Made by a program: the position numbers and the translations under genes. A DNA stretch of 49,115 nucleotides from Syntrophobacteraceae bacterium (GTDB lineage Bacteria; Desulfobacterota; Syntrophobacteria; Syntrophobacterales; Syntrophobacteraceae). Within the stretch, counting starts at the first letter, position 1. Each line of letters starts with the position of its first letter. The notes beneath the pieces are model-generated. The model did not search any database. It was not told the DNA's origin and was given only the letters and a program-made list of their open reading frames with translations. This document shows positions 9,085 to 37,749 of this stretch, piece after piece. The stretch is taken from assembly GCA_031292215.1 (NCBI GenBank), contig JARLHO010000047.1, forward strand, positions 1 through 49,115, read 5' to 3'.

Positions 9085-9530
9085 TGGAAAGCTTTCAACC
9101 GGTTATCGTAGCTTTTTGCTGCCACTACTGCGCCTATACGGCTGCGGATATGGCCGGGAGCAAAAGGCTTCATTATCCTGCGAACGTGAAGATTATACGG
9201 GTGCCCTGCACGGGCAAGGTGTCCGCGCTCCACATTATGGAAGCCTTGAGAAAGGGCGCAGACGGCGTGTATGTGGCCGGCTGCCTTGACGGAGACTGCC
9301 ACTTCCGGTCGGGAAACACCTGTGCTACAAAACGGGTGGCTTACGTAAAGAAGTTGCTCGATGAAATCGGGATTGGCGGGGAGCGCGTCGAGATGTTTGC
9401 GATGTCCGCCGGGATGGGGGAAGTGTTTGCCCGCACCGCCACCGATTTTACGGAAAAGATTCGCGACCTGGGTCCAAACCCCGCAAGGGTAGGGCTCGAC
9501 AAACTCGGATGCGTTGGCGCGGGGGCGTGA
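9084..9530 (+). CDS. mvhD: MvhD-like [2Fe-2S] subunit (hydrogenase delta subunit family)
   Basis: MvhD carries electrons between HdrA and a hydrogenase, formate dehydrogenase or other donor. In 148 residues the family signature is complete: FCCHYCAY (C12, C13, C16), PCTGK (C42), GC-DGDCHFxxGN (C67, C72) and C80. It overlaps the hdrA stop by one base, which suggests translational coupling and a stoichiometric complex. No hdrB or hdrC is present nearby, so the HdrA-MvhD pair probably serves the MetV-MetF module, as in acetogen met operons. The 95-base gap before metV holds no gene. Confidence 0.93.
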   Translation: MESFQPVIVAFCCHYCAYTAADMAGSKRLHYPANVKIIRVPCTGKVSALHIMEALRKGADGVYVAGCLDGDCHFRSGNTCATKRVAYVKKLLDEIGIGGERVEMFAMSAGMGEVFARTATDFTEKIRDLGPNPARVGLDKLGCVGAGA

Positions 9531-9625
9531 CCATTTGCGTAGCGCCCGGCGATTTTGCAGGGGCGCAATCTGCCTGAGGCGCCACGCCTCGCTGATTTCC
9601 AAGAAAAAGGAGAAAGTTAGCTGAC

Positions 9626-10291
9626 ATGATTACCGCCGAACGTAAACCCATCGAAGATCTTATTCAATCTGTTAGCCCCTACCGGCGAATACTTCTCGTC
9701 GGCTGTAACGAGTGCGTTACGGTGTGCTCCGCGGGGGGGCGAAAAGAGGTGGCGCTGCTATCCTCGGCCCTGCAGATGCACTTTATGAAGGAAGCCAAGC
9801 CTTTTGAAATAAAAGAGATCACTCTGGAAAGACAGTGCGATCCGGAATATATCGAGGAACTCGTTCCCATAATCGACCAGGCCGATGCGGTGCTCTCGAT
9901 GGCCTGCGGATGCGGTGTGCAGGAAATCGCCCGAAGGTTTAAGGAAAAACCCGTTCTGCCGGCGGTAAACACCACGTTCATGGGCGCCTCGGAGCGGCAG
10001 GGGGTGTGGGCTGAGCGTTGCGCCGGCTGTGGGGACTGCGTGCTGGGCGTAACGGGCGGGGTGTGCCCGATCGCGCGCTGCTCCAAGCAGCTCTTAAACG
10101 GTCCGTGCGGGGGCTCTACCCGCGGCAAGTGCGAAGTCGACCCGGATATCGACTGCGCCTGGCAGCTCATCTGGGACAGGCTAAAGGCGCTCGGAATGAC
10201 TGAGAGATATGAGGAAAACATTCCTGCTAAGGACTGGCGCACTGGACGGGGCGGTGGCCCGAGGAAAATTGTAAGAGAGGACCTGGCATAA
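9626..10291 (+). CDS. metV: MetV-like zinc/Fe-S subunit of methylenetetrahydrofolate reductase
   Basis: This 221-residue protein is of the 'MTHFR C-terminal domain' type that partners MetF in anaerobes. An N-terminal CNECVTVC motif (C27, C30, C34) is followed by GCGCGVQE near 95. A cysteine-rich tail has CAGCGDC, GVCPIARC and LLNGPCGG (C132-C169), the signature of the family. In known MetVF enzymes this subunit binds an Fe-S cluster and stabilises the flavin subunit. Its stop overlaps the metF2 start by one base (TAATG), which supports metF2 as its direct partner. The start has the GGAGAAAG ribosome site. Confidence 0.92.
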   Translation: MITAERKPIEDLIQSVSPYRRILLVGCNECVTVCSAGGRKEVALLSSALQMHFMKEAKPFEIKEITLERQCDPEYIEELVPIIDQADAVLSMACGCGVQEIARRFKEKPVLPAVNTTFMGASERQGVWAERCAGCGDCVLGVTGGVCPIARCSKQLLNGPCGGSTRGKCEVDPDIDCAWQLIWDRLKALGMTERYEENIPAKDWRTGRGGGPRKIVREDLA

Positions 10292-11214
10292 TGAAGACGG
10301 AAAGCATACTCGAAAAAATATTGACATCGGGACAACTGGCTGTAACGTCTGAATGCGGTCCCCCACGCGGCGCCCTTCCCGACAAGGTAAAGGAAAAGGC
10401 TGAATTTCTTCGTGGATGCGTCGACGCGGTAAACGTCACCGACAACCAGACGGCCATGGTGAGAATGTCTAGCCTTGCGGCCTGCATCATCATTAAGCAG
10501 ATGGGGCTAAACCCTCTTCTCCAGATGGTCACAAGGGACAGAAACCGCCTTGCCATGCAAAGCGAAGTCATCGGCGCCTATGCGCACGGCATTGACACGA
10601 TGCTTTGTCTTTCCGGCGACCACCCCCGTTTCGGAGACCATCCGATGGCGGCCTCCGTACACGACATCGACTCCGTCCAGGCCGTAACCATGGTGACAAA
10701 GATGCGAGACGATGGCCTCTTTCAGGGTGGCCAGAAAATCGACGGTCCTCCCAAGATGTTTGTGGGCGCTGCGGCAAACCCCTTCGCCGACCCCTTCGAA
10801 TTGCGCGTCGCAAGACTTGCCAAAAAGGTGAAGGCAGGAGTTGATTTCATCCAGACCCAGTGTATCTACAACGTCGACAAGTTCGAAAAGTGGATGGAAG
10901 GCGTTCGGGACCGCGGGCTGGATGAGAAGGTCTACATCCTGGCGGGTATTACGCCCATGAAATCGGTCGGGATGGCCAAATACATGAAGAATAAAGTGCC
11001 CGGGATGGATGTGCCTGACGATCTGATAAAGCGCATGGCCGGTGTTCCCAAGGAAAATCAGGCCGAAGAAGGTATCAAAGTGTGCCTGGAGACGATCGAG
11101 CGGTTAAGAAACGTCAAGGGTGTGGCAGGTTTTCACCTCATGGCGATCGAATGGGAACACAGAGTGGCTGAAATTGTGGAAAGGGCCGGGCTTTTGCCCA
11201 GACCCTCATTCTAA
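10291..11214 (+). CDS. metF: Methylenetetrahydrofolate reductase, MetF family (copy 2)
   Basis: This is the catalytic FAD subunit for methylene-/methyl-H4folate conversion, 307 residues. Conserved features include the catalytic Glu in VTSECGPPRG (E22), DNQTAMVRMSS, TRDRNRLAMQSEVIGA, LCLSGDHPRFGDHP and FIQTQCIYNVDKFEKWM, ending with IEWEHRVAEIVERAGL. It matches canonical MetF more closely than the copy at 5098, and its one-base overlap with metV makes it the likely genuine MetVF subunit. The upstream paralog may have a different donor or direction. Confidence 0.95.
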   Translation: MKTESILEKILTSGQLAVTSECGPPRGALPDKVKEKAEFLRGCVDAVNVTDNQTAMVRMSSLAACIIIKQMGLNPLLQMVTRDRNRLAMQSEVIGAYAHGIDTMLCLSGDHPRFGDHPMAASVHDIDSVQAVTMVTKMRDDGLFQGGQKIDGPPKMFVGAAANPFADPFELRVARLAKKVKAGVDFIQTQCIYNVDKFEKWMEGVRDRGLDEKVYILAGITPMKSVGMAKYMKNKVPGMDVPDDLIKRMAGVPKENQAEEGIKVCLETIERLRNVKGVAGFHLMAIEWEHRVAEIVERAGLLPRPSF

Positions 11215-15625: not shown

Positions 15626-16525
15626 CTATTTGTTGGGGCACCCTCCGCCCTGGCACATCTTAAGGAGTGTCCCGACATTTCCGCACCGCTTCAGCACATC
15701 GGCTGTGAAGTGTTCCAGAGCGGTTAAAAGAGGACTGGCCTCAGGGTTTTCCAAAAGAGGCTTGCCTGCATCGGATGCCTGCACCATGCGCGGGTCAAAC
15801 GGGAGGCTTCCCAGGAAAGGTATGTCCATCTGGTTGGCGGTCCTTGCGCCTCCGCCTTTTCCGAGCAGCGGGGTTTCCACGTTGCAGTGGGGACACACAA
15901 AGCCGCTCATGTTTTCGACGAGCCCAAGTATCGGCATGTGAACCTGCTTGCAGAAGTTGATCGACTTTCTTACATCCGCCAGCGCGATCTCCTGCGGAGT
16001 CGTAACGATTATCGATTTGGCGTCCGGGATCGTTTGAATCACGCTAAGCGGTTCATCTCCTGTCCCGGGAGGTGAATCTATTACCAGGAAGTCCAAATCT
16101 CCCCACTCCACATCCGAGACAAACTGCTTTATTACCCCGTGCTTTATCGGACCGCGCCAGATTACGGCGGAATCCCTGTCTTCCAGAAGACATTCGATCG
16201 AAATGACGTGCAACTTCTCATTGTAGGCATGCGGTATCATGCGCTTTTCGGGGCTGAAGGCGAAAACGCCCTCTAAGCCTAGCATGCGCGGGATGCTCGG
16301 TCCGTGGAGATCGACGTCCAGCAGGCCGACCCGGTGGCCCAACTTCGCCAGGCCAAGGGCTAGATAGGCAGCCACACTGCTTTTGCCGACCCCGCCCTTG
16401 CCGCTCATGACGAGCAGCTTATGGCCGATTCGGCCAAGTTGCTCCTGGATACGAGCGTTTTCCTCGGCCTCCTGCTGTTGATGCTGCTGACCGTGGCCGC
16501 ACTGTACACCTTCGGATGAACTCAT
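15626..16525 (-). CDS. Mrp/NBP35-family Fe-S carrier ATPase
   Basis: Mrp/ApbC proteins bind and transfer [4Fe-4S] clusters using a deviant P-loop. The 299 residues show GKGGVGKSS (42-50), DVDLHGPSIPR, DSPPGTGDE and the bridging CPHC motif in MSGFVCPHC. The N-terminus is His/Gln-rich (CGHGQQHQQQ), and a C-terminal CGNVGTLLKMCQGGGC tail adds cysteines. In Desulfovibrio, MinD/Mrp-type ATPases belong to the orange-protein complex transcribed with sigma-54. This gene has a consensus sigma-54 promoter at 16573-16587, about 50 bases upstream. The divergent partner is only a stump (16797-16823). Confidence 0.95.
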   Translation of the reverse strand: MSSSEGVQCGHGQQHQQQEAEENARIQEQLGRIGHKLLVMSGKGGVGKSSVAAYLALGLAKLGHRVGLLDVDLHGPSIPRMLGLEGVFAFSPEKRMIPHAYNEKLHVISIECLLEDRDSAVIWRGPIKHGVIKQFVSDVEWGDLDFLVIDSPPGTGDEPLSVIQTIPDAKSIIVTTPQEIALADVRKSINFCKQVHMPILGLVENMSGFVCPHCNVETPLLGKGGGARTANQMDIPFLGSLPFDPRMVQASDAGKPLLENPEASPLLTALEHFTADVLKRCGNVGTLLKMCQGGGCPNK

Positions 16526-16572
16526 GAAATATATACCCCTTTCTCTATTGTTGATTCAGCGATAAAATTCGA

Positions 16573-16587
16573 GCAACCTCCGTGCCA
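16573..16587 (-). promoter_or_regulatory. Sigma-54 promoter of the Mrp gene
   Basis: On the minus strand the sequence is TGGCACGGAGGTTGC, a full match to the -24/-12 consensus TGGCAC-N5-TTGC. The ATG of the Mrp gene lies 48 bases downstream of the -12 element. Confidence 0.88.
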
Positions 16588-16657
16588 CTGGAAGCCAAAA
16601 GGCAAAAGTAAGGCCATCTTTTTACCAAAAGGATACGAAAGCCGTGGAGTCCTCTCG

Positions 16658-16680
16658 GGGGGAACAATGGGTTCCCTCCA
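16658..16680. promoter_or_regulatory. GGGAAC-GTTCCC dyad between divergent sigma-54 promoters
   Basis: GGGGGGAAC (16658-16666) is mirrored by GTTCCCTCC around a 5-base spacer, 8 of 9 positions. It lies between the divergent sigma-54 promoters at 16573 and 16706, where an enhancer-binding protein would be expected to bind. Binding is inferred. Confidence 0.45.
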
Positions 16681-16705
16681 AATCGCCCCCACTGCTTGAG
16701 GCCTC

Positions 16706-16720
16706 TGGCACAGTCGTTGC
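16706..16720 (+). promoter_or_regulatory. Orphan sigma-54 promoter
   Basis: TGGCACAGTCGTTGC matches the -24/-12 consensus fully. It points away from the Mrp gene, but only the 8-codon frame at 16797 lies downstream, followed by the end of the convergent DtxR-like gene. Confidence 0.82.
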
Positions 16721-16796
16721 CTGCAGGTTATGGCCGGAGACTAAGATCTTACTAATTCCAGGTTTAAACGCCAAGCGTAAAAAAGGAGAAAAACCG

Positions 16797-16823
16797 ATGA
16801 AGAAAGTGGCTGTCGTAGCCTGA
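16797..16823 (+). pseudogene. Truncated gene stump MKKVAVVA behind a sigma-54 promoter
   Basis: A strong ribosome site (AAAAAAGGAG) precedes ATG and the codons MKKVAVVA, then TGA. The beginning resembles small NifX/orange-protein-type genes (beta-strand start, as in MTMVAIPV of the gene at 20336). A repeat of the GGTGAAT family begins exactly at the stop (16821-16850) and then runs into the 3' end of the convergent DtxR-like gene. I infer that the rest of the gene was deleted when the repeat-containing junction formed. An 8-residue leader peptide is the alternative. Confidence 0.55.
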
Positions 16824-16850
16824 ATCGGTGAATGGGGGAACGGGGGAACG
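16821..16850. repeat. GGTGAAT/GATTCACC-type short repeat
   Basis: TGAATCGGTGAATGGGGG then AACGGGGG repeats belong to the same minisatellite family as 17505-17546, 35205-35262 and the array at 49012-49115. It abuts the truncated stump and the stop codon of the DtxR-like gene. Confidence 0.6.
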
Positions 16851-16853
16851 CGC

Positions 16854-17408
16854 TCATGCCTGCGCTCTTTTCGGCTGGATCTGGTCGATTTCATCCAGGC
16901 ATGTCTTGAGACACTCTTTGCAACTCGATGGCCTTTGGCCGCCCTCGCAAAAAAGGGCGAAGGCCTCCGACCAGTTGACGCCGGTGCGCGGACAGCTTTT
17001 TAGAAACTCCAGAAAGCGGATTAGCCGGTTAACGGCTATGGAATCGATGGCATGTTCGATGCGGCCGGCGTTTAACTCGGCCCGCTCGGAATCGAGCTGT
17101 AAGGTGGAGGCGAAAAACTCCTTTAGTATCCCGTGGCGGTGCAGGAAATCGAGCCCGATCGTTCGTCCTTCGCTGGTAAGGGTAACGCAACTGTACGGGC
17201 TGTAGTGGATAAGGCCTCGGGCGGCCAGCACCTTGAGCGCTCCGGTTACCGAAGGACGCTGGACTCCCATCTGGTCGGCGATGTCTTTGGCTCGCGCCAC
17301 CCGGTTGGATTCTTCCAGGTGAAAGATCACTTGAATGTAGTCTTCCAGGCTGGCTGAGAGCCTTTGCCTTTTTACCGCGCGTGGTTTGGTTTGCCTGGTT
17401 TGCTTCAT
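16854..17408 (-). CDS. DtxR/MntR-family metal-dependent regulator
   Basis: This family represses metal-uptake genes when loaded with Fe(II) or Mn(II). The 184 residues start at ATG 17408 after GGAGAGG. The winged helix reads AKDIADQMGVQRPSVTGALKVLAARGLIHY (about 40-70). The dimer/metal region has HRHGILKEFF, E-rich LDSERAELNAGRIEHAID and a C-terminal CKECLKTC cluster not present in classical MntR, which could bind an extra metal. It lies between the NifU-like gene and Mrp, so iron-responsive control of Fe-S assembly is plausible. Confidence 0.88.
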   Translation of the reverse strand: MKQTRQTKPRAVKRQRLSASLEDYIQVIFHLEESNRVARAKDIADQMGVQRPSVTGALKVLAARGLIHYSPYSCVTLTSEGRTIGLDFLHRHGILKEFFASTLQLDSERAELNAGRIEHAIDSIAVNRLIRFLEFLKSCPRTGVNWSEAFALFCEGGQRPSSCKECLKTCLDEIDQIQPKRAQA

Positions 17409-17427
17409 ATCCTCTCCAACAAGAACT

Positions 17428-17546
17428 GGTGAGTGGGTGAATGGGGAAAAACCTACTCCACTCACCCAGTAGCTCATCATTTACCGGCAGGCGATGTCTT
17501 TGCCCCTACCCGATTCACCCATTCACCGATTCACCCATTCACCGGC
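17428..17546. repeat. GATTCACC/CATTCACC repeat cluster with inverted arms
   Basis: GGTGAGTGG (17428-17436) is mirrored by CCACTCACC (17458-17466). Alternating CGATTCACC and CATTCACC units follow at about 17511-17543. It fills the gap between the NifU-like and DtxR-like genes and is part of the short-repeat family seen at 16821, 35205 and 49012. Confidence 0.65.
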
Positions 17547-17553
17547 TCTTATC

Positions 17554-17949
17554 TCAGCGGCTTTTCTTATAGTAGTCCGCTATGGCCTCGCCCAGCGTAT
17601 TTACCGCAAGCCTTGCGCAGTGCAGGTGGTCGTCGGGCAGTCCACCGAGGATGTCGGCAATTTCACCAGGCTCTATGCGGAGCGCGTCGTCCAGGTTCCT
17701 GCCCTTTGCCAGCTCGCTCATCGCGCTCGAGCAGACCCACGTGTAGATGCAGCCATGCGGCGCGACCTTAATGTCTTTTATATTCTCGTTTGTAATTTCT
17801 AAAAACACCTCGACCGAATCGCCGCATTGGCCGACCGCGTTAGCCTTGGCATGGGCATTCTCAATGTGGCCGATATTTTCAGGCTGCTTTACCAGGCGCA
17901 AAAAATTTTCCCCCACCTGGTTTATCCCCGCGAATTTATCCTCAGACAT
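17554..17949 (-). CDS. NifU/IscU-like Fe-S scaffold protein
   Basis: IscU-type scaffolds assemble Fe-S clusters on three conserved cysteines. The 131 residues carry AVGQCGDSVEVFLEI (C1), HGCIYTWVCSSAMSELAKG (C2) and DHLHCARLAVNTL (C3), in the expected order. The start at 17949 follows AAGGAG. A sigma-54-like promoter (18011-18026) lies about 60 bases upstream. Genes of this kind beside NifX and Mrp homologs suggest a dedicated cofactor-assembly set rather than housekeeping Isc/Suf, which is not seen in the window. Confidence 0.9.
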   Translation of the reverse strand: MSEDKFAGINQVGENFLRLVKQPENIGHIENAHAKANAVGQCGDSVEVFLEITNENIKDIKVAPHGCIYTWVCSSAMSELAKGRNLDDALRIEPGEIADILGGLPDDHLHCARLAVNTLGEAIADYYKKSR

Positions 17950-18010
17950 CACTGTTTCTCCTTCTATAACGCCGTATTTTTTTAAAAAACATGTCAGCGG
18001 AATCACTAGA

Positions 18011-18026
18011 ATCAAAAAACGCGCCA
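18011..18026 (-). promoter_or_regulatory. Sigma-54-like promoter of the NifU-like gene
   Basis: On the minus strand this reads TGGCGCGTTTTTTGAT. The -24 TGGC and -12 TTG are present at correct spacing; the final GC of the -12 is replaced (GA). Its near-identical counterpart at 20981-20996 (TGGCGCGGTTTTTGAT) supports function. Confidence 0.7.
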
Positions 18027-18099
18027 TTCGCCACAATTACGCCCAATAACATCCCTCCGCCATTCGGTCTGGGTGGAGAAGGCGCGCAAAGGCGCTTTC

Positions 18100-18140
18100 A
18101 GTCCCCTGCAGTCGCATGCAAGGATGCAAATGGTTTCCAC
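18100..18140. promoter_or_regulatory. Conserved upstream activating element, copy A
   Basis: AGTCCCCTG (18100-18108), AAGGATGCAAAT (18120-18131) and GTTTCCAC (18133-18140) recur in the same order and spacing at 21071-21112. In both places the element lies between divergent sigma-54 promoters, 48-50 bases before the plus-strand -24. It is probably an enhancer-binding-protein or IHF-type site. Confidence 0.7.
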
Positions 18141-18187
18141 CTTCCCGGTCCGGCGCATCGCATCCCTGTTTAGGACCATAAGGGGCA

Positions 18188-18203
18188 TGGCGCAAAGATT
18201 GTA
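18188..18203 (+). promoter_or_regulatory. Sigma-54-like promoter of the GAF gene
   Basis: TGGCGCAAAGATTGTA has the -24 TGGC, the -12 TTG and exact consensus spacing. The -12 ends GTA as in the sister promoter at 21162. Confidence 0.72.
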
Positions 18204-18383
18204 CCGATCTTAGGTTAGGGCCATGATCTAGCATGGCCTTCCGGACAAGACTTTTTGTTCTCATTGAGATAGGTGAAATCGGCCGGTTCCGGCGCAGGCG
18301 AAAATCCGCCTGCATTGCAGCGGGTCGGCCGCGCCTGCCCCGGGAAAGCAGGGGCGGCCATTAAACTCAAAGGAGTAAAAGTC
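18204..18383 (+). other. Structured 5' leader of the GAF gene
   Basis: The untranslated leader is about 170 bases. Hairpins are CCATG...CATGG near 18221, GCAGGC/GCCTGC (18294-18299/18308-18313) and GGCCGCGCCTGC/GCAGGGGCGGCC (18327-18338/18348-18359, 11 of 12). The last ends 11 bases before AAAGGAG, the ribosome site. I see no match to a known riboswitch class. Confidence 0.5.
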
Positions 18384-19013
18384 ATGAAAAGACAACTTCT
18401 TAACTACGACACTCTACTCAAAATCTCCGGTGCTGTCTCCCACTCAAAGGATCCTGAAGAAGTCGTGCTGTTGACCGTGGAAAGTATAAAGACGGCCCTT
18501 GATGTCAAGGGGTGCGCGTTGTTTCTGGTCGACCGCCTAACCGACCAGCTCGATTTGGCCGCCTCTTTCGGGCTTGGCAAAGACTACATCTCTAAGGGGC
18601 CGCTCAGCGCATCGCGCTCCATAACACAATCTCTCGAAGATGGCCCGGTAGCAATCTACGATGTGGCCGACGATCCGAGAGTTCAGTACCCCGCAGAGGC
18701 CCAAAAAGAAGGAATCGTTTCCATTCTTTCCGTTCCCGTCGTTGCCTGCGGCCAGTCGATCGGGGCTTTGCGCGTCTACACCGCCGAGCCCTGGGATTTT
18801 ACCCTCGATGACGTCAATTTTGTTCAGGCCGTGGCCTCACTGGCCGGTATGGCCATCGAGATGGCCAGACTCTACAAGGGTTTCAAAGACAGCATCGAGG
18901 TGTTAAAGCAGTTTAGAGACCCGAAGACCCTCAAAAGCAAGAGGCTAACGCCCTATGAGGGGGTTCCGGTAAGCGTCCCCCGGGGTATCGCGAAAAAGGT
19001 CATGCCGGTGTAA
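18384..19013 (+). CDS. GAF domain protein
   Basis: This 209-residue cytosolic protein is one GAF domain (about 20-165) with short tails: DPEEVVLLTVESIKTAL, KGCALFLVD, ILSVPVVACGQSIGALRVYT, FVQAVASLAGMAIEMARLY. GAF domains bind small molecules, metals or cyclic nucleotides. There is no output domain, so it may sense for a partner. The ATG at 18384 follows AAAGGAG. Its promoter is sigma-54-like and divergent to the NifU-like gene, with the same control region as the DUF5320-like gene at 21224. That suggests a regulatory or metal-sensing role in the same regulon. Confidence 0.85.
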   Translation: MKRQLLNYDTLLKISGAVSHSKDPEEVVLLTVESIKTALDVKGCALFLVDRLTDQLDLAASFGLGKDYISKGPLSASRSITQSLEDGPVAIYDVADDPRVQYPAEAQKEGIVSILSVPVVACGQSIGALRVYTAEPWDFTLDDVNFVQAVASLAGMAIEMARLYKGFKDSIEVLKQFRDPKTLKSKRLTPYEGVPVSVPRGIAKKVMPV

Positions 19014-19167
19014 GGATGTAGCCGATTCCAGGTCATCGCCGGGGTGGAAAACGATTGCCCGTCTTTTGCTCTCGTATTGGAACTCCAGCGCGAAACCCCA
19101 AACGGGCCCCTTCATTTCAACTCCAACCGTTCCTTGCCGATTGGAGTCCATCCGCTCCGGCGCTTCC

Positions 19168-19422
19168 TCAGGACAGCGCTTTGCCGCAACAACTGCCGGG
19201 AACGCATCCTTTCGATGCCGCGGAGGCCCCGCAGCACCCGGTATCGCCTGCCCCCGGCAGTCTGTCCACGGACTTTACTCCGGAAAGACTCGACGGGGTG
19301 GACAGGAGCCTTTTTAAATCGGGACAGCCGCATTTTTCGCAGCGTAAATCCGGGCTGCCCGCAGACACGATCTTTTCAAAGACATTGCCGCAGGACGTGC
19401 ATTGGAACTCGAATATTGGCAT
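19168..19422 (-). CDS. FmdB-family zinc ribbon protein (second copy)
   Basis: This 84-residue protein starts MPIFEFQCTSCGNVFE, with a second CEKCGC pair, giving the FmdB zinc ribbon. A Cys-rich tail (GCCGASAASKGCVPGSCCGKALS) is unusual and might bind more metal. It is the last gene of the minus-strand operon NifX-like - MBL - FmdB (gaps of 39 and 31 bases), transcribed from the sigma-54-like promoter at 20981. Confidence 0.85.
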   Translation of the reverse strand: MPIFEFQCTSCGNVFEKIVSAGSPDLRCEKCGCPDLKRLLSTPSSLSGVKSVDRLPGAGDTGCCGASAASKGCVPGSCCGKALS

Positions 19423-19453
19423 GTGGAATTTTTCCTCTTCTTAAAAAAAGTTA

Positions 19454-20296
19454 CTAAATTTCGAGCACAAAACCTACGGAGCCAAAAGCGAACCGCTCGC
19501 CGAATTCGAAGGCCAGCCTGGCCATGGGCCCCAGTCCGGTACAGTGGCTAACGGCTAGCACCTGTATGTCGAACTCCCTTAGCGCCTCGATGCTGGGAGA
19601 AATTTGCGCTGCGGGGGAAAGGCCAAGATGGGTGCCGCCAAGAACGGCGTAAACGCGTTTTTCGCCGGTCTTTTGGACCGCGTGGGAAAGAATATTTACT
19701 ACCCCTGCGTGAGCGCACCCCAAAACGACCACCAACCCCCGGGACGTTGTTATGACCAGCGAGAAATCATCGAGAAAAGGGTCCTGGAAAAACCCGCCGT
19801 TTCGACGAACCACGAGCCTGGGGGCGCCCTGCTCGAAGTCCGTTTTTCTCGGGACCTCACCCGTTATGAAGACGTTATCGGCAATTTGGGCGAAATCGCG
19901 CCGCCAGTCAAACTTTGCCCCGCGGGTCGTAAGATGGGACTGGGTCCAGGGCATACCGTTTGCCCGCGGCTTTTCCTCCCCACCCTCGGATGGGATCAAC
20001 CGGAATCTTTCACTAAATACTTCCGGATGAGCTACTACGGGGCAGGGGCCTTTTACTTCCAAAAACGCGGGCAGCCCCCCCACGTGGTCCGAGTGTCCGT
20101 GGCTCAAAACGACTTGCGACACATCCCGGAGATCTTTTCCTAGCCGCATCGAGTTCGAAATGAGCCCCAAACCCTGCCCGGTGTCGAATAAAATATTTTG
20201 GCCGGGTGTTTCGATAAACGCAGCAAATCCGTGCTCACCCAGAAACCCCATACCAAAGACCGTATTTTCGCAAAGTACAGTTACTCTGCACTCCAT
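19454..20296 (-). CDS. MBL-fold metallo-hydrolase
   Basis: This 280-residue protein has the metallo-beta-lactamase fold. The metal motif HGHSDHVGG lies near residue 65, with later ligands in VLGCAHAGVVNIL and VSHCTG. The layout resembles the archaeal/bacterial 'dihydropteroate-synthase-related' MBL group (N-terminal LCENTVFGMGFLGEHGFAAFIE). Such genes often sit beside NifX/Mrp proteins in anaerobes. The substrate is unknown. It is second in the operon behind the NifX-like gene. Confidence 0.88.
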   Translation of the reverse strand: MECRVTVLCENTVFGMGFLGEHGFAAFIETPGQNILFDTGQGLGLISNSMRLGKDLRDVSQVVLSHGHSDHVGGLPAFLEVKGPCPVVAHPEVFSERFRLIPSEGGEEKPRANGMPWTQSHLTTRGAKFDWRRDFAQIADNVFITGEVPRKTDFEQGAPRLVVRRNGGFFQDPFLDDFSLVITTSRGLVVVLGCAHAGVVNILSHAVQKTGEKRVYAVLGGTHLGLSPAAQISPSIEALREFDIQVLAVSHCTGLGPMARLAFEFGERFAFGSVGFVLEI

Positions 20297-20335
20297 CTAT
20301 CGCGCCTCCCGGGAAAAGCTGTTTTTGCCAAATGT

Positions 20336-20920
20336 CTAGCGGGTCTTTCTGGTCATGGCGGACGAGCACGCAGGACAAAGGATTTGAGAGCAGGGGATGC
20401 CACGCTCGTGGCCTACCGTTTCCCCGCATCGGGGGCAGACGCAAAATCCCCCGGGGCCTGCCTGCGTTTTGTCTTCCGGCCCGGGATTGGGGGGGGACGT
20501 TTTCGCGGCCGCTCCAACACCTTCCGTGGTCGCTCCGGCCGTTTCCCTCGCGCATTTTGCGCCCACCTTGTAGCGGCGCTGTCCCCTGCATCCGGGGAGC
20601 CAGTACCTGGGGCAGTCGAGTTCGCCTTTGCAGTAAGCCTCAAGGACTTCTTGGATTTCGCCGGCAATTCCGTGGATAATTCTAAAACCCAGGCTTTCGG
20701 CGTAGCTTAACATCGCCGGGCTTAGCGCGCCGCAGATCACGGTATTTATCCCCTGCCGGCGCAGGGTGCGCATAAGAGCGAACCGGCTCTCATCCTTTAC
20801 GTGCATCTCACGGCTTGCCGTAGCCTCGGGCCCTTCCCCGGAGACGATCAGAATCTTCGAGCACCAATCCAGCACAGGCGCTACGCGGGTGCGAAAGACC
20901 GGGATGGCCACCATAGTCAT
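20336..20920 (-). CDS. NifX/NafY-like (orange-protein family) with C-terminal zinc ribbon
   Basis: The first ~120 residues match the dinitrogenase iron-molybdenum cofactor biosynthesis fold (MTMVAIPVFRTRVAPVLDWC, INTVICGALSPAM, GFRIIHGIAGEIQEVLEAY). Proteins of this fold bind FeMo-co precursors or, in orange protein, a Mo-Cu cluster. A Gly/Pro/Ala linker (about 130-160) leads to a zinc-ribbon tail with CVCPRCGE and ILCPACSSAM, so this is a fusion, 194 residues in all. It leads the operon with MBL and FmdB. No nifHDK is present here, so nitrogen fixation is not implied. Confidence 0.88.
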   Translation of the reverse strand: MTMVAIPVFRTRVAPVLDWCSKILIVSGEGPEATASREMHVKDESRFALMRTLRRQGINTVICGALSPAMLSYAESLGFRIIHGIAGEIQEVLEAYCKGELDCPRYWLPGCRGQRRYKVGAKCARETAGATTEGVGAAAKTSPPNPGPEDKTQAGPGGFCVCPRCGETVGHERGIPCSQILCPACSSAMTRKTR

Positions 20921-20980
20921 CTCCTCCTTGGACCATTAGTTTTAATAGCGCGGTCCGAATTCGGGCCGTTTGCTCTATTT

Positions 20981-20996
20981 ATCAAAAACCGCGCCA
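20981..20996 (-). promoter_or_regulatory. Sigma-54-like promoter of the NifX-like operon
   Basis: On the minus strand this reads TGGCGCGGTTTTTGAT, differing by one base from the NifU-like promoter at 18011. The NifX-like ATG is about 60 bases downstream, the same distance as at the sister locus. Confidence 0.72.
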
Positions 20997-21070
20997 TTGT
21001 CCTCGGGTGGTGCGGGGGCTGCTGTCCGGTCTTGCCGCCCAAAGGGGGCGCGATGGGAAAAGGTGTCTAT

Positions 21071-21112
21071 AGTCCCCTGTTTTCAGCCTGTAAGGATGCA
21101 AATTGTTTCCAC
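21071..21112. promoter_or_regulatory. Conserved upstream activating element, copy B
   Basis: AGTCCCCTG (21071-21079), AAGGATGCAAAT (21092-21103) and GTTTCCAC (21105-21112) match copy A (18100-18140) in order and spacing. The surrounding sequence is not conserved, so the match is unlikely to be a simple recent duplication. Confidence 0.72.
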
Positions 21113-21161
21113 TTTTTACGGCCTCGTTTTTCCTTCCGTCTACGCGGCCCAATCCGGCCAA

Positions 21162-21177
21162 TGGCACGGAGATTGTA
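21162..21177 (+). promoter_or_regulatory. Sigma-54 promoter of the DUF5320-like gene
   Basis: TGGCACGGAGATTGTA matches the consensus except C to T in the -12 GC. The ATG at 21224 lies 47 bases downstream. The gene's ribosome site is AAAGGAGG. Confidence 0.78.
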
Positions 21178-21223
21178 ATCTTTTACTGCTGCAGGAAATC
21201 TCTAGCAAAAGGAGGTATGCGAC

Positions 21224-21580
21224 ATGCCGGGTTTTGATAGAAGTGGACCGAATGGGGCAGGCCCCATGACGGGCGGGGTGAGAGGCTCCTGTGGGGGCCT
21301 TGGCGGGCGCGGCGTAAGGAATCGCTCTGAAGGTGGCGGAGTCCTTACGGGAAGAGGCGGTGGCGGCCGAGGGTGTAAAAACAGGTTTTTTAGCACCGCT
21401 GCTTCCGGGTTGGGCTTTTCCCGCGGGCCTCAAACGTTTGAGCAAGGTTTTGGGGGGGACGTGGAATCCGTTACTCACCTGGAAACGCTAAAGAAGAGGG
21501 CCGGGTATTTTGAAAAAATCCTGGATGGAATCAAGCGGCAAATTCAAAGGTTGGAGTCGGGAACGCCGGCCGGCCGGTAA
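21224..21580 (+). CDS. DUF5320-like glycine-rich small protein
   Basis: This 118-residue protein begins MPGFDRSGPNGAGPMTGG, the signature of the DUF5320 group, followed by about 50 residues of Gly/Arg-rich low complexity and a C-terminal coiled coil (THLETLKKRAGYFEKILDGIKRQIQRLES). The function is unknown. The group is repeatedly found next to NifX-like and Mrp genes in anaerobes. It is transcribed from the sigma-54 promoter at 21162, and the selenoprotein candidate follows 141 bases later. Confidence 0.85.
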   Translation: MPGFDRSGPNGAGPMTGGVRGSCGGLGGRGVRNRSEGGGVLTGRGGGGRGCKNRFFSTAASGLGFSRGPQTFEQGFGGDVESVTHLETLKKRAGYFEKILDGIKRQIQRLESGTPAGR

Positions 21581-21721
21581 GCTCGGTTTGTAAAGAGGCG
21601 CTTTTTAGCTGGATGAGGCTCCCCTCCGGGTCCCGCGGGGCTGACTTGGCTCCAATAGCCGGGCGGGGAGCATTGTTAAGAATCCGGGTTATAATCGGAC
21701 TGCAAGTCAAAGGAGGTGAGC

Positions 21722-23092
21722 GTGAAAAGCGGAGATAAATTGGTGATCGTTGGATGCGGCGGCGCGGGTGGTCCGGCGGCGATGCTGGCAAAAAAGCTGA
21801 TGCCCGAACTGGACGTTACCGTTATTCGCAAAGAAGAGTTTTTTATCGTACGGTGAGCTCTTCCTCACGTCGTGGCCGGTCTGGTCACAGGAGAATCCAT
21901 CATTGTCGCCGATAAGATGCTCGAAGGCGCCGGCATTAAGGTCGTAAAGGGCGAAGTCTTAAGAGTCGATGCGGCCGCAAGGAATGTCTTCGTCTCGGGC
22001 GGTGAAACGTTCGGATACGATAAGCTATTTCTTGCAACCGGCGCCGACGCGATCATGCCGCCCCTTGAGGGAAACGATCTCGAGGGCGTTTTGACATTGC
22101 GGGGACTTGCCGATGGCTGGAAAATAAAATCCTGCATAGCCGATAAAAACGCCGTAAATATCGTATTTATCGGCGCGGGTTTCATCAGCATGGAAATAGC
22201 CTCGCTACTTTCCGAAAACGTGGATCGATTGCTAAATATTTCGGTTATCGAATACCTGGACCGTCCTCTGCCCCTGATGCTCGATTATGACATGGCCGAT
22301 GTGGTTCGGCCGTACCTGGAACAAAAGGGGCTAAATATGTTTCTAAACGAAAAGGCGGAAAAACTGGTGGGTAGTAACGGCCAGGTCACCGGGGTCGTGT
22401 TGGGGTCCGGGAAAAAGCTCGATGCCGATGTGGTCATTGTAAACGTGGGCGCAAGGGCAAATGTGGAGCTTGCCGAGCAGATCGGCCTGGAGATGGGCCG
22501 GTTTGGCATCAAGGTGAACGGGTTCCAGGAGACTTCCAACCCCGATATCCTTGCGGGGGGCGATTGCGTGGAAAAAATCAATTTTATTACGAAAAAACCC
22601 ACCCCGGGTCGTCTTCGGGGACCCGCGGTAATGCAGGGGCGTCTTGCTGCAAAACGGCTTGCGGGCTACGATGTCGAGTTTCCGGGCGTACTGGATGCCG
22701 GGGGGTGTAAAATGTTTGATATGACGGTCGCAGCCACCGGCCTTACTGCGGCAAACGCGGCCCTTGAAGGTATCGAAACGGTATGTGCAACCGTTGATTC
22801 ACGGAGCAAACACGCGATGATTGCGGGGATGAAACCCTGGAAAATAAAGCTGGTCTTTGACAAAAAGACGCAAAAGCTTATCGGGGGCCAGATTGTGAGC
22901 CATGCGGTGGCCCCGGCAAAAGAGATCGACGCCCTCACCGCTTTTATCCTCGCCGGAAGGACAATTCCGGAGCTAACAACCTTTACTGCGGCCTGCAACC
23001 CGGATATCTCCTCTGAGCCAAGCGCTGAACCGATCACCCTTTGCGCGGAACAGGCGTGGCAAAAATTGCGTCAACTCGGCCGGACGCAATAA
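21722..23092 (+). CDS. Selenocysteine-containing FAD/NAD-dependent disulfide reductase (CoADR/NADH oxidase-like)
   Basis: The gene reads as 456 residues if the in-frame UGA at 21854-21856 (codon 45) is selenocysteine. GTG at 21722 follows AAAGGAGGTGAGC. The N-part has the FAD-binding VIVGCGGAGG (8-17). The UGA follows EEFFIVR and precedes ALPHVVAG, matching the CGLPYY motif that holds the single redox Cys (about 42-43) of CoA-disulfide reductase and NADH oxidase. Downstream are ATGAD (about 105), the NAD-binding IGAGFIS (151-156) and GGDC (about 280). Sequence on both sides of the UGA fits the family. The SECIS-like hairpin is at 21872-21888. A simple nonsense mutation or sequencing error is the alternative. 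Likely a thiol/peroxide/CoA redox enzyme. Confidence 0.85.
21854..21892 (+). promoter_or_regulatory. UGA (Sec) codon and bacterial SECIS-like hairpin
   Basis: After the UGA at 21854-21856, GUGGCC (21872-21877) pairs with GGUCAC (21883-21888), including one G-U pair, around the loop GGUCU. UCCU/AGGA extend the stem after a bulge. The loop starts 21 bases after the UGA; in E. coli fdhF the same GGUCU loop lies 18 bases after. These are the two features SelB requires. Confidence 0.78.
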
Positions 23093-23267: not shown

Positions 23268-23762
23268 ATGTCCAAGACCGAAAAGGACCTTATGGACGCC
23301 TTTGCCGGCGAATCGCAGGCAAACAGGAGATACCTGGCTTATTCGCAACGGGCCGAAGATGAGTTCCTGCACGGGGTGGCCAGGCTTTTCCGGGCCATAG
23401 CCGAGGCGGAAACCATTCACGCGATAAAACACCTGCGCACGGCGGGAAAGGTCAAGAGCACCAAAGAAAACATCGAAGACGCCATAGCCGGTGAGACTCA
23501 TGAATTCCGCACCATGTACCCGGAGATGATCGCGCATGCGAAAGAAGAAGGCAATAAGTCCGCCGAAATAGGCTTTGATTACGCCAACAAGGTGGAAGCC
23601 CTGCATGCGCAGTTGTATAAAAAAGCGCTCGAAGACCCGGAAAATTTTCCTCTGCAGGACTACTACATCTGTAAAATTTGCGGCTGCACCATCGCTAAAG
23701 ACATTCCGGACGTCTGCCCGGTATGCGGGGCGAATTCCAAGGCTTTTTTCAAGGTGGATTAG
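23268..23762 (+). CDS. Rubrerythrin
   Basis: Rubrerythrin reduces H2O2 in the anaerobe cytosol with a di-iron site and a rubredoxin-like centre. The 164 residues show the ferritin-like helices with Fe ligands in AGESQANRRY, EAETIHAIKH, AGETHEF and NKVEALHAQLY. The C-terminal rubredoxin domain has CKICGC and CPVCGA. The length is slightly short for the family but complete. It lies behind the Sec flavoprotein and upstream of FprA, a set that points to oxygen and peroxide defence. Confidence 0.95.
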   Translation: MSKTEKDLMDAFAGESQANRRYLAYSQRAEDEFLHGVARLFRAIAEAETIHAIKHLRTAGKVKSTKENIEDAIAGETHEFRTMYPEMIAHAKEEGNKSAEIGFDYANKVEALHAQLYKKALEDPENFPLQDYYICKICGCTIAKDIPDVCPVCGANSKAFFKVD

Positions 23763-23787
23763 GGCTTGTCCGTAAATTTCCCGGCCC

Positions 23788-24753
23788 TCAGCCGGAAATC
23801 CCGGGTATCCCGGGGATGGACCGGGCTTTGCGCACGCCCCGAAGGATCGCCTGCTCGACGGCTATTACCGCAAGGGCGCCGACCAGGCTCACCTCCATGC
23901 CCGCAAGATTCCCGCAGCTAAGGGCAAAGAGGGTGTCCCCGTCATACTGGGTGTGGGCCGGGAAAACAGTTCTTGCCAGCCCGTCGTGGGCCATTTGAGC
24001 TACCTTGGTCAACTCGACCTTGCTAAACAGGGCGTTTGTCGCAATGGCCCCGACAACGGTGTTCTGGCTCGAAAATCCCGTCTGGAAGCCGGTCATGCTC
24101 CTTAGGGCGGGTAGGGTGTCGATCGGCTCACCTGCCTCCCCGCCCGATCTTGCCCCGGCGACAAGGGCCCCTGTCGCCGGATCGTATACCTCTCCGAAGG
24201 CGTTTACCACGATCAAGGCGCCAACCTGTAGTCCAGCGGCCCCGGTGACCAGGCTGCTTCCTATCCCTGCCTTCACGCATCGGTTAAAGCCGAAAAGCTT
24301 TGCCACCGTAGCACCGCTTCCAGCGCCCACCCCGCCTTCTTCAACCGCCTGAGACGTTGCCATCCGGCAGGCTTTCGCCCCGAGTTGGGCGCCCGGATAG
24401 TTTCCGCTCGTGTTGACGCCCAGGTCGAAAATAATAGCGCCGGACACGATGGGCACGACTCCGTGGCCGGTTGCAAACCCCTCTTTTCGCTCCCTTAAGT
24501 ACTCCCGAACGCCGTCCGCGCAGCTCAACCCGAAGGCAGATCCTCCTGAGAAGAAAAGAGCGTTGACCGTATCGACCAGGTTGACGGGGTTTAGCGTATC
24601 GGTGCCGTAGGTGCCGGGGGCGCCCCCCCGGATGTCTACGCCCGCGATTGCCCCCCCGCGCGGCAAAATCACGGTGCACCCGCTGGGGATGGACTCAAGC
24701 TTTGCATGGCCCACCCGTATTCCCTCTATGGCCGTGATCGTGTCGTTTTCCAT
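23788..24753 (-). CDS. P1 (DmpA/NylC-like) family peptidase
   Basis: This 321-residue protein belongs to the N-terminal-nucleophile P1 family (L-aminopeptidase/D-esterase, nylon-oligomer hydrolase). Family blocks include GIRVGHA, GGAPGTYGTD, FFSGGSAFGL, GAGSGATVAK and GAIATNALFSK, then DGDTLFAL. The likely self-cleavage point is Asn231-Thr232 in SSQNTVVGA, as in the NylC type. The natural substrate is not predictable. It is the third gene of an operon with the HD protein (one-base gap) and the small protein at 25543. Confidence 0.9.
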   Translation of the reverse strand: MENDTITAIEGIRVGHAKLESIPSGCTVILPRGGAIAGVDIRGGAPGTYGTDTLNPVNLVDTVNALFFSGGSAFGLSCADGVREYLRERKEGFATGHGVVPIVSGAIIFDLGVNTSGNYPGAQLGAKACRMATSQAVEEGGVGAGSGATVAKLFGFNRCVKAGIGSSLVTGAAGLQVGALIVVNAFGEVYDPATGALVAGARSGGEAGEPIDTLPALRSMTGFQTGFSSQNTVVGAIATNALFSKVELTKVAQMAHDGLARTVFPAHTQYDGDTLFALSCGNLAGMEVSLVGALAVIAVEQAILRGVRKARSIPGIPGISG

Positions 24754-24754
24754 C

Positions 24755-25507
24755 TCACTCCCTGAAATGTTCGATCAGATACCGGTAAATTTCCTTGCCA
24801 ATTTCCAGCCCCTCTTCGACGATCTCGGGGCCAAATTGCCTGCCGGTAGCGCTCCGGAAAGTCTCGATGACGCTCGCAGCGCCCGACATTCCCCATGGGA
24901 ATTTTTCGATCAATTCCAGGGGGCTTAAGCTCTGGTAATCCATCATGTGCCACAGCATGTGCGTGAATGTGTCTGCCCCCCAGCGGAATTTGTCCGCATC
25001 GTAGAGACAGTTGCTAACGAGTTGGGCCCACTGCCGTCCTGAGGAAGCCGAAGAGGCGAAGGCCTCATGATTTCTAATGGCCTCGCTGACACAGGTAATT
25101 TCCTCCGGGGTGAGCAAAAAACCTTCCAGGAGCCCCTTTGCTCTTTGTGCTCCAATCAGGGCGTGGTCTTTTTCTTCGCGGCAGATATCGTGCAAGACCC
25201 CGGAGTAGATCCCGATCACCATCAGCCGCTCGACGGCTGCAGGCGCCATGTGGTCTCCATCCGTTTCGATTTGGATAAGGGCCGCGCAGTCGATGCTTAC
25301 GCGACTGCTGTGGAAGACGCCGTGGCCAAGCGCTTCGTTGTATTCGGGCTCGACGATCCCGCGCAGCCGCACGATTCCCGGATGGTTATAGAAAAGCCTT
25401 CTTGCCACGGCCAGCGGCGCCTTAAACCGGGTGTAAAACGCGGGCAGCGGATGCTTTGAAGCTATCCGTTGCGCCTCCTGCTGCAGCTTCGAGGTAATTT
25501 CGTCCAT
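24755..25507 (-). CDS. HD-domain protein
   Basis: This 250-residue cytosolic protein has the metal-dependent phosphohydrolase pattern: GHGVFHSSRV, GVLHDICR (HD dyad), RNHEAF and DADKFRW. The substrate is unknown; nucleotides are usual in the family. It is one base from the P1 peptidase start and 35 bases after the small gene at 25543-25806, so the three are co-transcribed. Confidence 0.85.
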   Translation of the reverse strand: MDEITSKLQQEAQRIASKHPLPAFYTRFKAPLAVARRLFYNHPGIVRLRGIVEPEYNEALGHGVFHSSRVSIDCAALIQIETDGDHMAPAAVERLMVIGIYSGVLHDICREEKDHALIGAQRAKGLLEGFLLTPEEITCVSEAIRNHEAFASSASSGRQWAQLVSNCLYDADKFRWGADTFTHMLWHMMDYQSLSPLELIEKFPWGMSGAASVIETFRSATGRQFGPEIVEEGLEIGKEIYRYLIEHFRE

Positions 25508-25542
25508 TCCTGGCCCTTCTGTCCGATGTGCAGCCGTCCATG

Positions 25543-25806
25543 TTACATCAGGCGGAATTTTTCGGCAATAAGGCGTCTAAAGCGAGGGGCGTACAGGAGT
25601 TCGAACGTTTCCTCTTTTCCGGGGAAAAGGGCTGTCGCCTGTCGCCTGACCCCTTGCACGACCCGTTGGGCCTCCTCCGAAGAGAGGGGCGACTGGGCGA
25701 TAAAGGCCAGGGAAAAGTCGACAAGTCTTCTTAGGCGTCTGATCCGCCGGTCTTCCTCCTGGATCTCGGCTTCGCTATATTTTCGTGCAGGTTCGCTTTC
25801 GTCCAT
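25543..25806 (-). CDS. Small helical conserved-looking protein
   Basis: From the ATG at 25806 (GGAGG upstream) this encodes 87 residues, highly charged and probably all-helical: MDESEPARKYSEAEIQEEDRRIRRLRRLV then SLAFIAQSPLSSEEAQRVVQGVRRQATALFPGKEETFELLY. No motif or family is recognised. Good coding character, its ribosome site and tight linkage to the HD protein support a real gene. Confidence 0.7.
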   Translation of the reverse strand: MDESEPARKYSEAEIQEEDRRIRRLRRLVDFSLAFIAQSPLSSEEAQRVVQGVRRQATALFPGKEETFELLYAPRFRRLIAEKFRLM

Positions 25807-26027
25807 GGCTCTTGCCTCCTTTTCCGTGGAATACATTCGCATATTCAATAATAACCTGTAAATCCATGGTTCCCCATCTCGGGCCATGGGGCTTTCTCTA
25901 GAGCCGGATTTAAATTTTTATTGCCCCGGGCTTTGATAATGTTTAATAATCCAGTCTCAAATAAAGATTGCTGTTGATACCGTTAACTTTCACGCTCAAG
26001 CGCGTAACCATTTTTAAAGGGGGTTCC

Positions 26028-27239
26028 ATGGGACCGGTTCAGATTAAAGAGGACATTTACTGGGTTGGGGCGTTGGATTGGGACATTCGTGATTTCCACG
26101 GGTATTCCACTCCTAAGGGAACCACTTATAACGCCTACCTGGTGATGGATGAGAAGATAACGCTCTTTGACGGGGTAAAAAAGCATTTCAAAGACGACCT
26201 GCTAAAGCGCATAAGCAAGATAGTCGATCCCCGGCGTATCGACTACCTTGTGGTCAACCATGTCGAACCCGACCATTCGGGCTCCATTCCCGAACTCGTG
26301 GAGCTGCTCGGCCCGGAGAAAGTAATCTGTTCGCCCATGGGCAAAAAGACCCTGATCGACCATTATCAGCGCGAAGATTGGCCCTTCCATGTGGTTGAAA
26401 CCGGCCAGGAGCTTAAGCTTGGGAAAAGGACGGTCACCTTTTTTGAAACCCGCATGCTTCACTGGCCAGACAGTATGATGTCTTACTTAAACGAAGACAG
26501 GATCCTTATTTCCAGCGACGCTTTCGGTGAGCATTGGGCCACCAGCCAGAGGTTTGACGACGAGGTCGATTCGGCCGAGCTCTTCTATCACGCGTCCAAG
26601 TACTACGCCAACATCCTGCTTCTCTATTCTCCCCTGGTGCAGAAACTGATGGCCAAGTTCGCCGAGCTTGGAATCTCTCCGGCCATGATAGCTCCCGACC
26701 ACGGGGTTATCTGGAGAAAGGACCTGGGGGGGATACTTTCGGCCTATGGAAAGTGGAGCAGGCAGGAGTCCAGCAGAAAAGCTCTCGTAATATATGACAC
26801 GATGTGGGAGGCGACCGCCAGGATGGCCGAGGCAATCGGCGAAGGGCTAAAGGAGGAGGGCGTAGATTTTAGGCTCCTAAACCTTAAGTACATTCATCGA
26901 AGCGATGTCATGACCGATGTGCTCGATTCCCGGGCCATTGTCATGGGTTCGCCGACGCTCAACAACGGCATGATGCCTGCTGTGGCCGATATGCTGACCT
27001 ACATGAAGGGTCTAAAACCCCACGGCAAGGTCGGCGCGGCCTTCGGTTCCTACGGCTGGAGCGGCGAAGCCGTAAAGCTCATCTCCGAATGGATGCGCGA
27101 GATGAATATCGGCATGGTGGGGGACGGCCTGAGAGTCAAATACACCCCCACAAAGCAGGATCTCGATAAATGCGTCGAACTCGGCCGCCAGGTGGCCCGC
27201 GCGGCCCTTGCGCTGGAAGCAGGCAAAGCCCCCGCGTGA
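26028..27239 (+). CDS. fprA: FprA-type flavodiiron protein
   Basis: Flavodiiron proteins reduce O2 to water and/or NO to N2O. The 403 residues include an MBL-like diiron domain (HVEPDHSGS, ETRMLHWPDSM, SSDAFGEH, APDHGVIWR) and a C-terminal flavodoxin (IYDTMWEATARMAEAIGEG, GSPTLNNGMMP, FGSYGWSGEA). The start at 26028 lies behind AAAGGGGG. There is no rubredoxin fused, so an outside donor is needed; the rubrerythrin and other redox proteins lie upstream. It is followed by a strong hairpin. Confidence 0.96.
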   Translation: MGPVQIKEDIYWVGALDWDIRDFHGYSTPKGTTYNAYLVMDEKITLFDGVKKHFKDDLLKRISKIVDPRRIDYLVVNHVEPDHSGSIPELVELLGPEKVICSPMGKKTLIDHYQREDWPFHVVETGQELKLGKRTVTFFETRMLHWPDSMMSYLNEDRILISSDAFGEHWATSQRFDDEVDSAELFYHASKYYANILLLYSPLVQKLMAKFAELGISPAMIAPDHGVIWRKDLGGILSAYGKWSRQESSRKALVIYDTMWEATARMAEAIGEGLKEEGVDFRLLNLKYIHRSDVMTDVLDSRAIVMGSPTLNNGMMPAVADMLTYMKGLKPHGKVGAAFGSYGWSGEAVKLISEWMREMNIGMVGDGLRVKYTPTKQDLDKCVELGRQVARAALALEAGKAPA

Positions 27240-37642: not shown

Positions 37643-37707
37643 CTCTATTGCCTCCTTGTGGAATTGAAGTTTATTCCAAAGTAATTGTAACTCCGCATTT
37701 GTAATGC

Positions 37708-37749
37708 AATATAGCCCCCGGACGAAAAAGAGTCCTTGACTTGGATCAA
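37708..37749 (-). promoter_or_regulatory. hcp promoter with FNR/HcpR box at -41.5
   Basis: On the minus strand the box TTGATCCAAGTCAA (37749-37736) is followed after 22 bases by TATATT (37713-37708) as -10. The box centre is 29.5 bases from the first base of the -10, that is at -41.5, the classical class II activator position. No -35 is recognisable, as expected for an activator-dependent promoter. Confidence 0.8.

Follow-up and report, generated by a model that had tools for sequence, protein, structure and literature searches.

The window, by which the whole stretch of 49,115 nucleotides analysed here is meant, carries on its forward strand a reading frame that runs from GTG at 21722 to TAA at 23090–23092 and comprises 456 codons plus the stop, interrupted solely by a TGA at codon 45. 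The frame was read directly from the sequence and agrees with the preliminary description, which had placed it from GTG 21722 to 23092 with a break at codon 45 only; it stands behind AAGGAGG. The standard-code listing of open reading frames gives 21872–23092 alone, a protein of 406 amino acids, just as had been predicted for an automatic call, so that the FAD site and the selenocysteine (Sec) are lost from it. The gene and its parts are distributed as follows.

21710–21716, + strand: Shine–Dalgarno site AAGGAGG, 5 nt before the GTG, read directly; the orthologs have a purine-rich site at the matching position.
21722–23092, + strand: whole gene, almost certainly of a selenoprotein, encoding an FAD/NAD(P)-binding pyridine nucleotide-disulfide oxidoreductase with dimerisation domain, 456 residues with the TGA taken as Sec (domains, AlphaFold2 model, fold matches).
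21752–21772, + strand: FAD-binding glycine motif, codons 11–17, 5' of the TGA and absent from the 406-residue reading.
21854–21856, + strand: TGA codon 45, predicted Sec at the redox-active Cys position, motif FIVR-U-ALPHV (alignment, ortholog conservation).
21872–21888, + strand: SECIS-like hairpin GUGGCC-GGUCU-GGUCAC (consensus fold, silent-site and pair counts).
21878–21882, + strand: apical loop GGUCU, codons 53–54 (Gly GGT, Leu CTG); GGT in 32 of 35 rows, CTG in all 32 rows with Leu.
22817–22819, + strand: Met366, in a column where Tyr is commonest among relatives of the CoA-disulfide reductase (CoADR) type; Met in 36 of 38 family rows, Tyr in 35 of 57 others.
22994–22996, + strand: Cys425, in the column of the first YAPP Tyr of CoADR-type relatives (alignment); proposed partner, from the other subunit, of Sec45.

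The read-through protein was matched by Pyr_redox_2 (1.1e-47) and Pyr_redox_dim (3.3e-11), and its best sequence matches in the PDB were the persulfide reductase 6pfz (2.1e-56), 5l1n and 6ruz, in whose alignments the TGA column coincides with the Cys of the CGxPY motif, which bears out the earlier placement of the TGA at the redox-Cys position of a CoA-disulfide reductase or NADH oxidase. The AlphaFold2 model, computed from 28 aligned rows, reached a pLDDT of 84.4 and a pTM of 0.84, and its comparison with 3cgb and 6pfz gave Z scores of 41.7 each, over 430 and 440 residues, respectively. The score against the NCBIfam equivalog TIGR03385 (CoA-disulfide reductase) was 254 bits, below the cut-off of 578.8. 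A flavin reductase fold is practically certain, and the FAD- and NAD(P)H-dependent reductase is probably homodimeric.

Under one set of length limits the window holds 16 in-frame TGAs between two open stretches, the one at codon 45 counted, so that the break alone is unremarkable and the case rests on homology and conservation. Relatives were collected from 59 near genomes, from a contig scan of GTDB 220 (32 loci) and from 395 genomes of the phylum. The contig scan, which reaches close relatives only, was seeded with six peptides from the window protein that all lie outside codon 45, and is therefore not biased to TGA; in the phylum scan four candidates were scored per genome and matches with E up to 1e-90 were kept, yielding 10 genomes with a match, six of the Sec type and four of the Cys type. 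Duplicates were removed (L022–L026 and L113, the same contigs as L051, L052, L071, L079, L053 and L054), and the fragment L078, which does not span codon 45, the frameshifted L080 and the internally deleted L081 were left out of the count, the latter two also carrying the TGA. The resulting alignment has 36 rows with identities of about 54% or more, the window among them; 35 of these carry the TGA at codon 45, which is thus shared by 34 other genomes, and the sole exception was L116, with TGT for Cys, and the distant rows L117–L119 (41–42% identity) likewise have Cys in this column. Homologs with Sec or Cys aligning at codon 45, on which the preliminary description had staked its reading, are accordingly present. 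The TGA-carrying isolate genomes include Desulfosarcina widdelii (L075), D. alkanivorans (L074) and Desulfofustis glycolicus (L070), and six of the 35 TGA rows (L058, L067, L070, L074, L075 and L076) are not labelled as metagenome bins, which puts assembly error out of consideration. For codons 2–44, dN/dS between the window and five near rows was 0.036–0.147 (the pair L027/L028, one codon out of register, was dropped from the list), a range that marks the 43 codons upstream of the TGA, at the level of sequence comparison, as being under strong purifying selection as coding sequence.

The two broken copies were also observed in their own right. At L081:8001-8270 lies a gene remnant in which an internal deletion fuses the initial 80 or so codons to the final few, with the TGA retained. 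The copy at L080, in a record titled Desulfothermus okinawensis JCM 13304, is 79% identical and looks frameshift-broken; the match seems close for Desulfothermus, and the record itself may be a mixture or poor in quality.

Sixteen to thirty bases behind the TGA, the preliminary description had pointed to a hairpin with a GGUCU loop, as in the SECIS of E. coli fdhF. Such a hairpin was recovered from the 16th to the 32nd nucleotide after the TGA, with a stem of 6 bp (GTGGCC-GGTCT-GGTCAC), and the consensus fold of 35 rows is exactly this hairpin at 21872–21888. Third-base diversity at fourfold sites averaged 0.636 outside codons 46–57 (173 sites) and fell to 0.307 at codon 51, 0.057 at codon 52, 0.161 at codon 53 and 0.000 at codon 54, values as low being found in 3, 0, 1 and 0 of the 173 outside sites, respectively. 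At the other glycine codons of these genes, the third base T that codon 53 shows in its GGT rows is used in 312 of 1502 cases. Pairing was possible in 98.0% of 204 hairpin cells, against 17–52% with slid partners, and among 34 distinct rows the pair 21–33, which joins codon 51 to codon 55 at their third bases, was G-C in 22, A-U in 7 and G-U in 5. Two-sided change was seen in one hairpin pair only, in rows that are related to each other, and two of the five pair measures, two-sided-change pairs and further pair types, did not rise above shuffles (488 of 500 as high). The single-sequence fold energy is ordinary (z -0.11, 89 of 200 shuffles as good) with the hairpin itself present. Rfam gave no SECIS match at gathering scores over the whole window, and at E up to 10 over 21830–21930 it returned two unrelated sub-threshold matches and no SECIS. 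In L116, the nearest Cys relative, this hairpin does not form. Judged from the silent-site and pair counts, the hairpin is under RNA-level selection; the flanking homology, the conserved TGA itself and this silent-site selection together raise the TGA at codon 45 above the chance breaks.

The genome from which the window comes (4.89 Mb, 96.9% complete) encodes tRNA-Sec (74 bits, anticodon tca), selA (614 bits), selB (362 bits) and selD (384 bits), each over its curated cut-off, with selD having a TGA of its own, so that the search for selA, selB, selC and selD suggested earlier found all four. SelB, acting on the GGUCU hairpin behind the UGA, would deliver Sec-tRNA(Sec) to codon 45, as argued by the sequence conservation, the silent-site selection and the presence of the machinery. 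Among 21 genomes tested, selA was present in 19, and of the 12 with the Sec gene it was missing only from G391, which is 76% complete. Presence of selA was rejected as a correlate of Sec versus Cys, being missing from the Sec genome G391 and the Cys genome G219 and present in the Cys genomes G339, G194 and G166.

That the TGA is instead a true stop, either breaking the gene or preceding a start at 21872 of a 406-residue protein, agrees with the standard-code listing and with the frequency of chance TGA breaks in the window, but is hardly credible given the TGA counts and upstream dN/dS values above and the conservation of the N-terminal FAD motif and the Shine–Dalgarno site. Genome-wide reassignment of UGA to Trp, Gly or Cys, in place of Sec recoding, would account for the frame being open through the TGA and for nothing more; it is still less credible, with TGA terminating the same gene in the orthologs L056, L058, L071, L072, L074, L076 and L077, with tRNA-Sec, selA, selB and selD present, with the hairpin conserved and with Cys as the aligned residue. 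On the computed evidence the gene almost certainly encodes a selenoprotein, and the pseudogene reading is set aside; that the protein is at once a selenoprotein and of the CoADR/Npsr/NADH-oxidase fold is very likely.

Sec in this enzyme family is already known since 2006, and the UALPH clade is a separate branch of it. In the parts of the literature available to us, a Sec 'NADH oxidase' was published in that year for Geobacter metallireducens (Zhang 2006; PMC1794560), an 'NADH oxidase' selenoprotein is given for a marine metagenome (PMC2398784), an 'FAD-dependent oxidoreductase (CoA-disulfide reductase, NADH oxidase)' selenoprotein, WP_011365774.1, appears in a review of 2022 (PMC9312934), and a review of 2026 (PMC13188914) lists a CoA-disulfide reductase selenoprotein as UGxP, the sole such entry in its Table 1; the available portion of PMC8318568 names no such flavoprotein. 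Desulfosarcina widdelii PP31, the host of L075, has 38 known selenoproteins according to the accessible text of PMC12013277, and its gene may be among them. In a tree of 70 rows, 22 of them taken from the 35 Sec rows, the UALP sequences group together in a single clade (98/90), to which the Cys row L116 is sister and L117–L119 come next, and the UGIPYY and UPTPYY Sec groups lie far from it with Cys lineages between; being midpoint-rooted, the tree does not tell separate Sec gains from one gain with losses. The UGxP family (COG0446/TIGR03385, WP_011365774.1) is the same enzyme family, with Sec at the U of UxxP, which is the redox-Cys column in the UGIPYY rows, whereas the window enzyme has UALPH, no YAPP Tyr and Cys at 423/425. 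WP_011365774.1 was equated with the UGIPYY rows by motif alone, and their clade is separate from that of UALPH. In another Sec group of the same fold (L083–L087, L089, L092, L094, L031, L049 and L093) the redox position carries the motif U(P/E)TPYY, and the TGA is followed by a different hairpin, which reads TTACATCGGTGATGTAA in 7 of the 10 rows looked at; for CoA-disulfide reductase, Table 1 of PMC13188914 lists UGxP only.

Among characterised structures, the NADH-dependent persulfide reductase of Archaeoglobus fulgidus (6pfz) and the CoA disulfide/persulfide reductases 3cgb, 5l1n, 4fx9 and 8a56 share the full-length fold (Z 35.2–41.7, 28–32% identity) and hold a single redox chalcogen in the same place, but as Cys, in contrast to the Sec of the window enzyme; 6pfz moreover keeps the YAPP Tyr that the window enzyme is without. 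NADH peroxidase and NADH oxidase, which follow a single-Cys design, are alike in fold (1npx, 5vn0 and 2bc0; Z 38.4–40.8, 25–27% identity), again with Sec as the difference. Mercuric reductase and thioredoxin reductase are flavin reductases whose active sites are reached by Cys or Sec residues from the C-terminus of the other subunit; these enzymes have a CxxxxC-type redox pair and belong to other subfamilies, and the likeness to them would concern the proposed mechanism only. The A. fulgidus enzyme has a rhodanese tail, as stated in the available part of PMC7969121, and this tail is absent from the window enzyme. The Sec subtype of type III sulfide quinone reductase (NF049943), also an NAD(P)/FAD-dependent oxidoreductase with Sec, is another family, with the Sec motif HxxU according to the table of PMC13188914.

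Differential conservation was also observed for two tyrosine columns. The first YAPP Tyr column has Tyr in 50 of the 54 relatives outside the family; the 37 family rows show no Tyr there, 29 having Cys and 8 Gly. The eight Gly rows and three others have a Cys two residues before this column, so that every one of the 37 family rows covering this part has a Cys at 423, at 425 or at both, while no Cys was found anywhere in 421–433 among the 54 comparison rows, an unbalanced sample of the homologs fetched that includes the other Sec groups. The second Tyr column, mostly Met in the family as listed above, presumably corresponds to Tyr361 of S. aureus CoADR, and we take Tyr361 and Tyr419, the S. aureus residues of these two columns, to come from the partner subunit and to face the redox Cys. 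Y361F and Y419F structures are contained, by title, in the list of fold matches. A literature search found no paper on the role of Tyr361 or Tyr419 of S. aureus CoADR, and no statement on a tyrosine was found in the available parts of PMC7969121 and PMC6026696; the same part of PMC6026696 does state that in this group of enzymes the other subunit contributes residues to the active site. The C-terminal Cys is shared by the Cys relatives L116–L119 and is thus a trait of the wider family, predating or independent of Sec.

The boldest reading, to which a probability of roughly one in three is given, is that of a separately fixed Sec lineage on the CoADR/Npsr fold in sulfate reducers, in which both catalytic tyrosines have been lost and a C-terminal Cys of the partner subunit couples to the Sec, giving a two-centre selenoenzyme with a new substrate. 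For the Sec45–Cys425' pair across the dimer, taken by itself and judged from the alignment, the odds are about even. In the proposed cycle NAD(P)H would reduce FAD and FADH2 would reduce the bond to Sec45, the Sec45 selenolate would attack the substrate, Cys425' (or Cys423') from the C-terminal domain of the other subunit would resolve the Sec–substrate adduct or selenenic acid, and the resulting selenenylsulfide would be reopened by FADH2, making the enzyme a Sec version, on a single-Cys scaffold, of two-thiol reductases such as mercuric reductase and thioredoxin reductase. Candidate substrates in a sulfate reducer would be a low-mass disulfide, a per- or polysulfide, or a peroxide; a thiol or sulfane-sulfur substrate is slightly favoured, and peroxide or O2 is a somewhat unlikely one.

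The gene neighbourhood was compared among 40 loci, many of which end near the gene, so that absences of neighbours are weak. In the window the gene is followed on the same strand by a rubrerythrin (23268–23762), which is found again in the congeners G010 and G005 and, at a distance of about 7.5 kb, in L052, the rest of the 40 loci being without it; being confined to one genus, it was rejected as a functional link. Upstream, at 15626–21580, lie genes for a ParA/NUBPL-like ATPase, an iron-dependent repressor, a NifU-like protein, a metallo-beta-lactamase, a NifX-like protein (Nitro_FeMo-Co) and a DUF5320 protein; within the genus of the window the ParA-like and NifX-like genes were present in 5 of 5 loci and DUF5320 in 4 of 5, with the NifU-like and metallo-beta-lactamase genes also recurring, and outside it the NifU-like gene was seen only in L060, L067, L078 and L127 and the metallo-beta-lactamase in L067, L078, L125 and L127. 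A Cys homolog of the CGMP type (persulfide-reductase-like), with the motif CGMPYN, lies directly downstream in 5 of the 40 loci (L054, L055, L056, L064 and L125), where the Sec enzyme and the CGMPYN reductase may act together, and 6 of the 40 have a thioredoxin-like gene no more than 7 kb away, nearest in L058 and L061; these two neighbours are slight evidence for a thiol role. When 29 distinct ORFs of the window and 10 neighbours were scanned with Pfam, no single partner emerged, and none is common to the whole clade across the 40 loci. The neighbourhood, recurring inside the genus and only in patches outside it, was set aside as a guide to function, and DsrA was rejected as a correlate, since it is found in 10 of the 12 Sec-gene genomes but also in 3 of 5 genomes of the same genus that are without the gene.

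Two further accounts of the function were weighed against the two-centre reading. The enzyme might be an ordinary Sec CoADR/Npsr, in which a single Sec forms the mixed bond with CoA, CoA disulfide, persulfide or polysulfide is reduced and the C-terminal Cys is structural only; CoADR and Npsr are indeed the best-scoring families and folds, the CGMP-type homolog lies directly downstream at those five loci, and DsrA was over the cut-off in the Sec-gene genomes as counted above, but the TIGR03385 score falls far short of its cut-off, the YAPP Tyr is gone from every one of the 37 family rows and the second Tyr replaced by Met in nearly all, and DsrA also occurs in congeners without the gene, which leaves this account doubtful. 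An NADH peroxidase or oxidase, with Sec45 cycling through a selenenic acid with H2O2 or O2 and shielding the anaerobe from oxygen, would suit the same-strand rubrerythrin immediately downstream in the window, L071/L024 and L079/L025, the flavodiiron protein (25968–27239) and hybrid-cluster protein (36026–37813) of the window, and the near fold match of NADH peroxidase (1npx, Z 39.1); against it, the rubrerythrin is found among the 40 loci only in L071, L079 and the more distant L052, a distribution of one genus, and the account is unlikely.

For genome annotation, the standard reading, in dropping the FAD site and the Sec, would make the enzyme look like a headless reductase in any genome so annotated. 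The UALPH clade, which occurs in many sulfate-reducing bacteria, spans Desulfosarcina, Desulfofustis, Desulfoprunum, Desulforhopalus and Desulfatitalea (Desulfobacterota), and its Cys sister L116 offers a natural Sec/Cys comparison; if the Sec–Cys' pair is true, it would represent a route from single-cysteine to two-centre flavin reductases.

Other gene groups were observed in the window and among distant relatives. At 23268–27239 and 36026–38574 the window holds the rubrerythrin, the flavodiiron-type protein and a hybrid-cluster (prismane) protein beside a Crp-type regulator, a set that looks like the oxygen/NO defence of an anaerobe. Distant Cys relatives with CATPY or CAIPY (L121–L123) adjoin, or lie one gene from, a gene which we take from its N-terminus to be dihydroxy-acid-dehydratase-like. 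At 5098–11214 the window carries a MetF-Hdr type cluster, in which an MTHFR, an HdrA-like flavin/Fe-S protein of 1016 aa, an MTHFR C-terminal-type protein (DUF5981) and another MTHFR are encoded one after the other.
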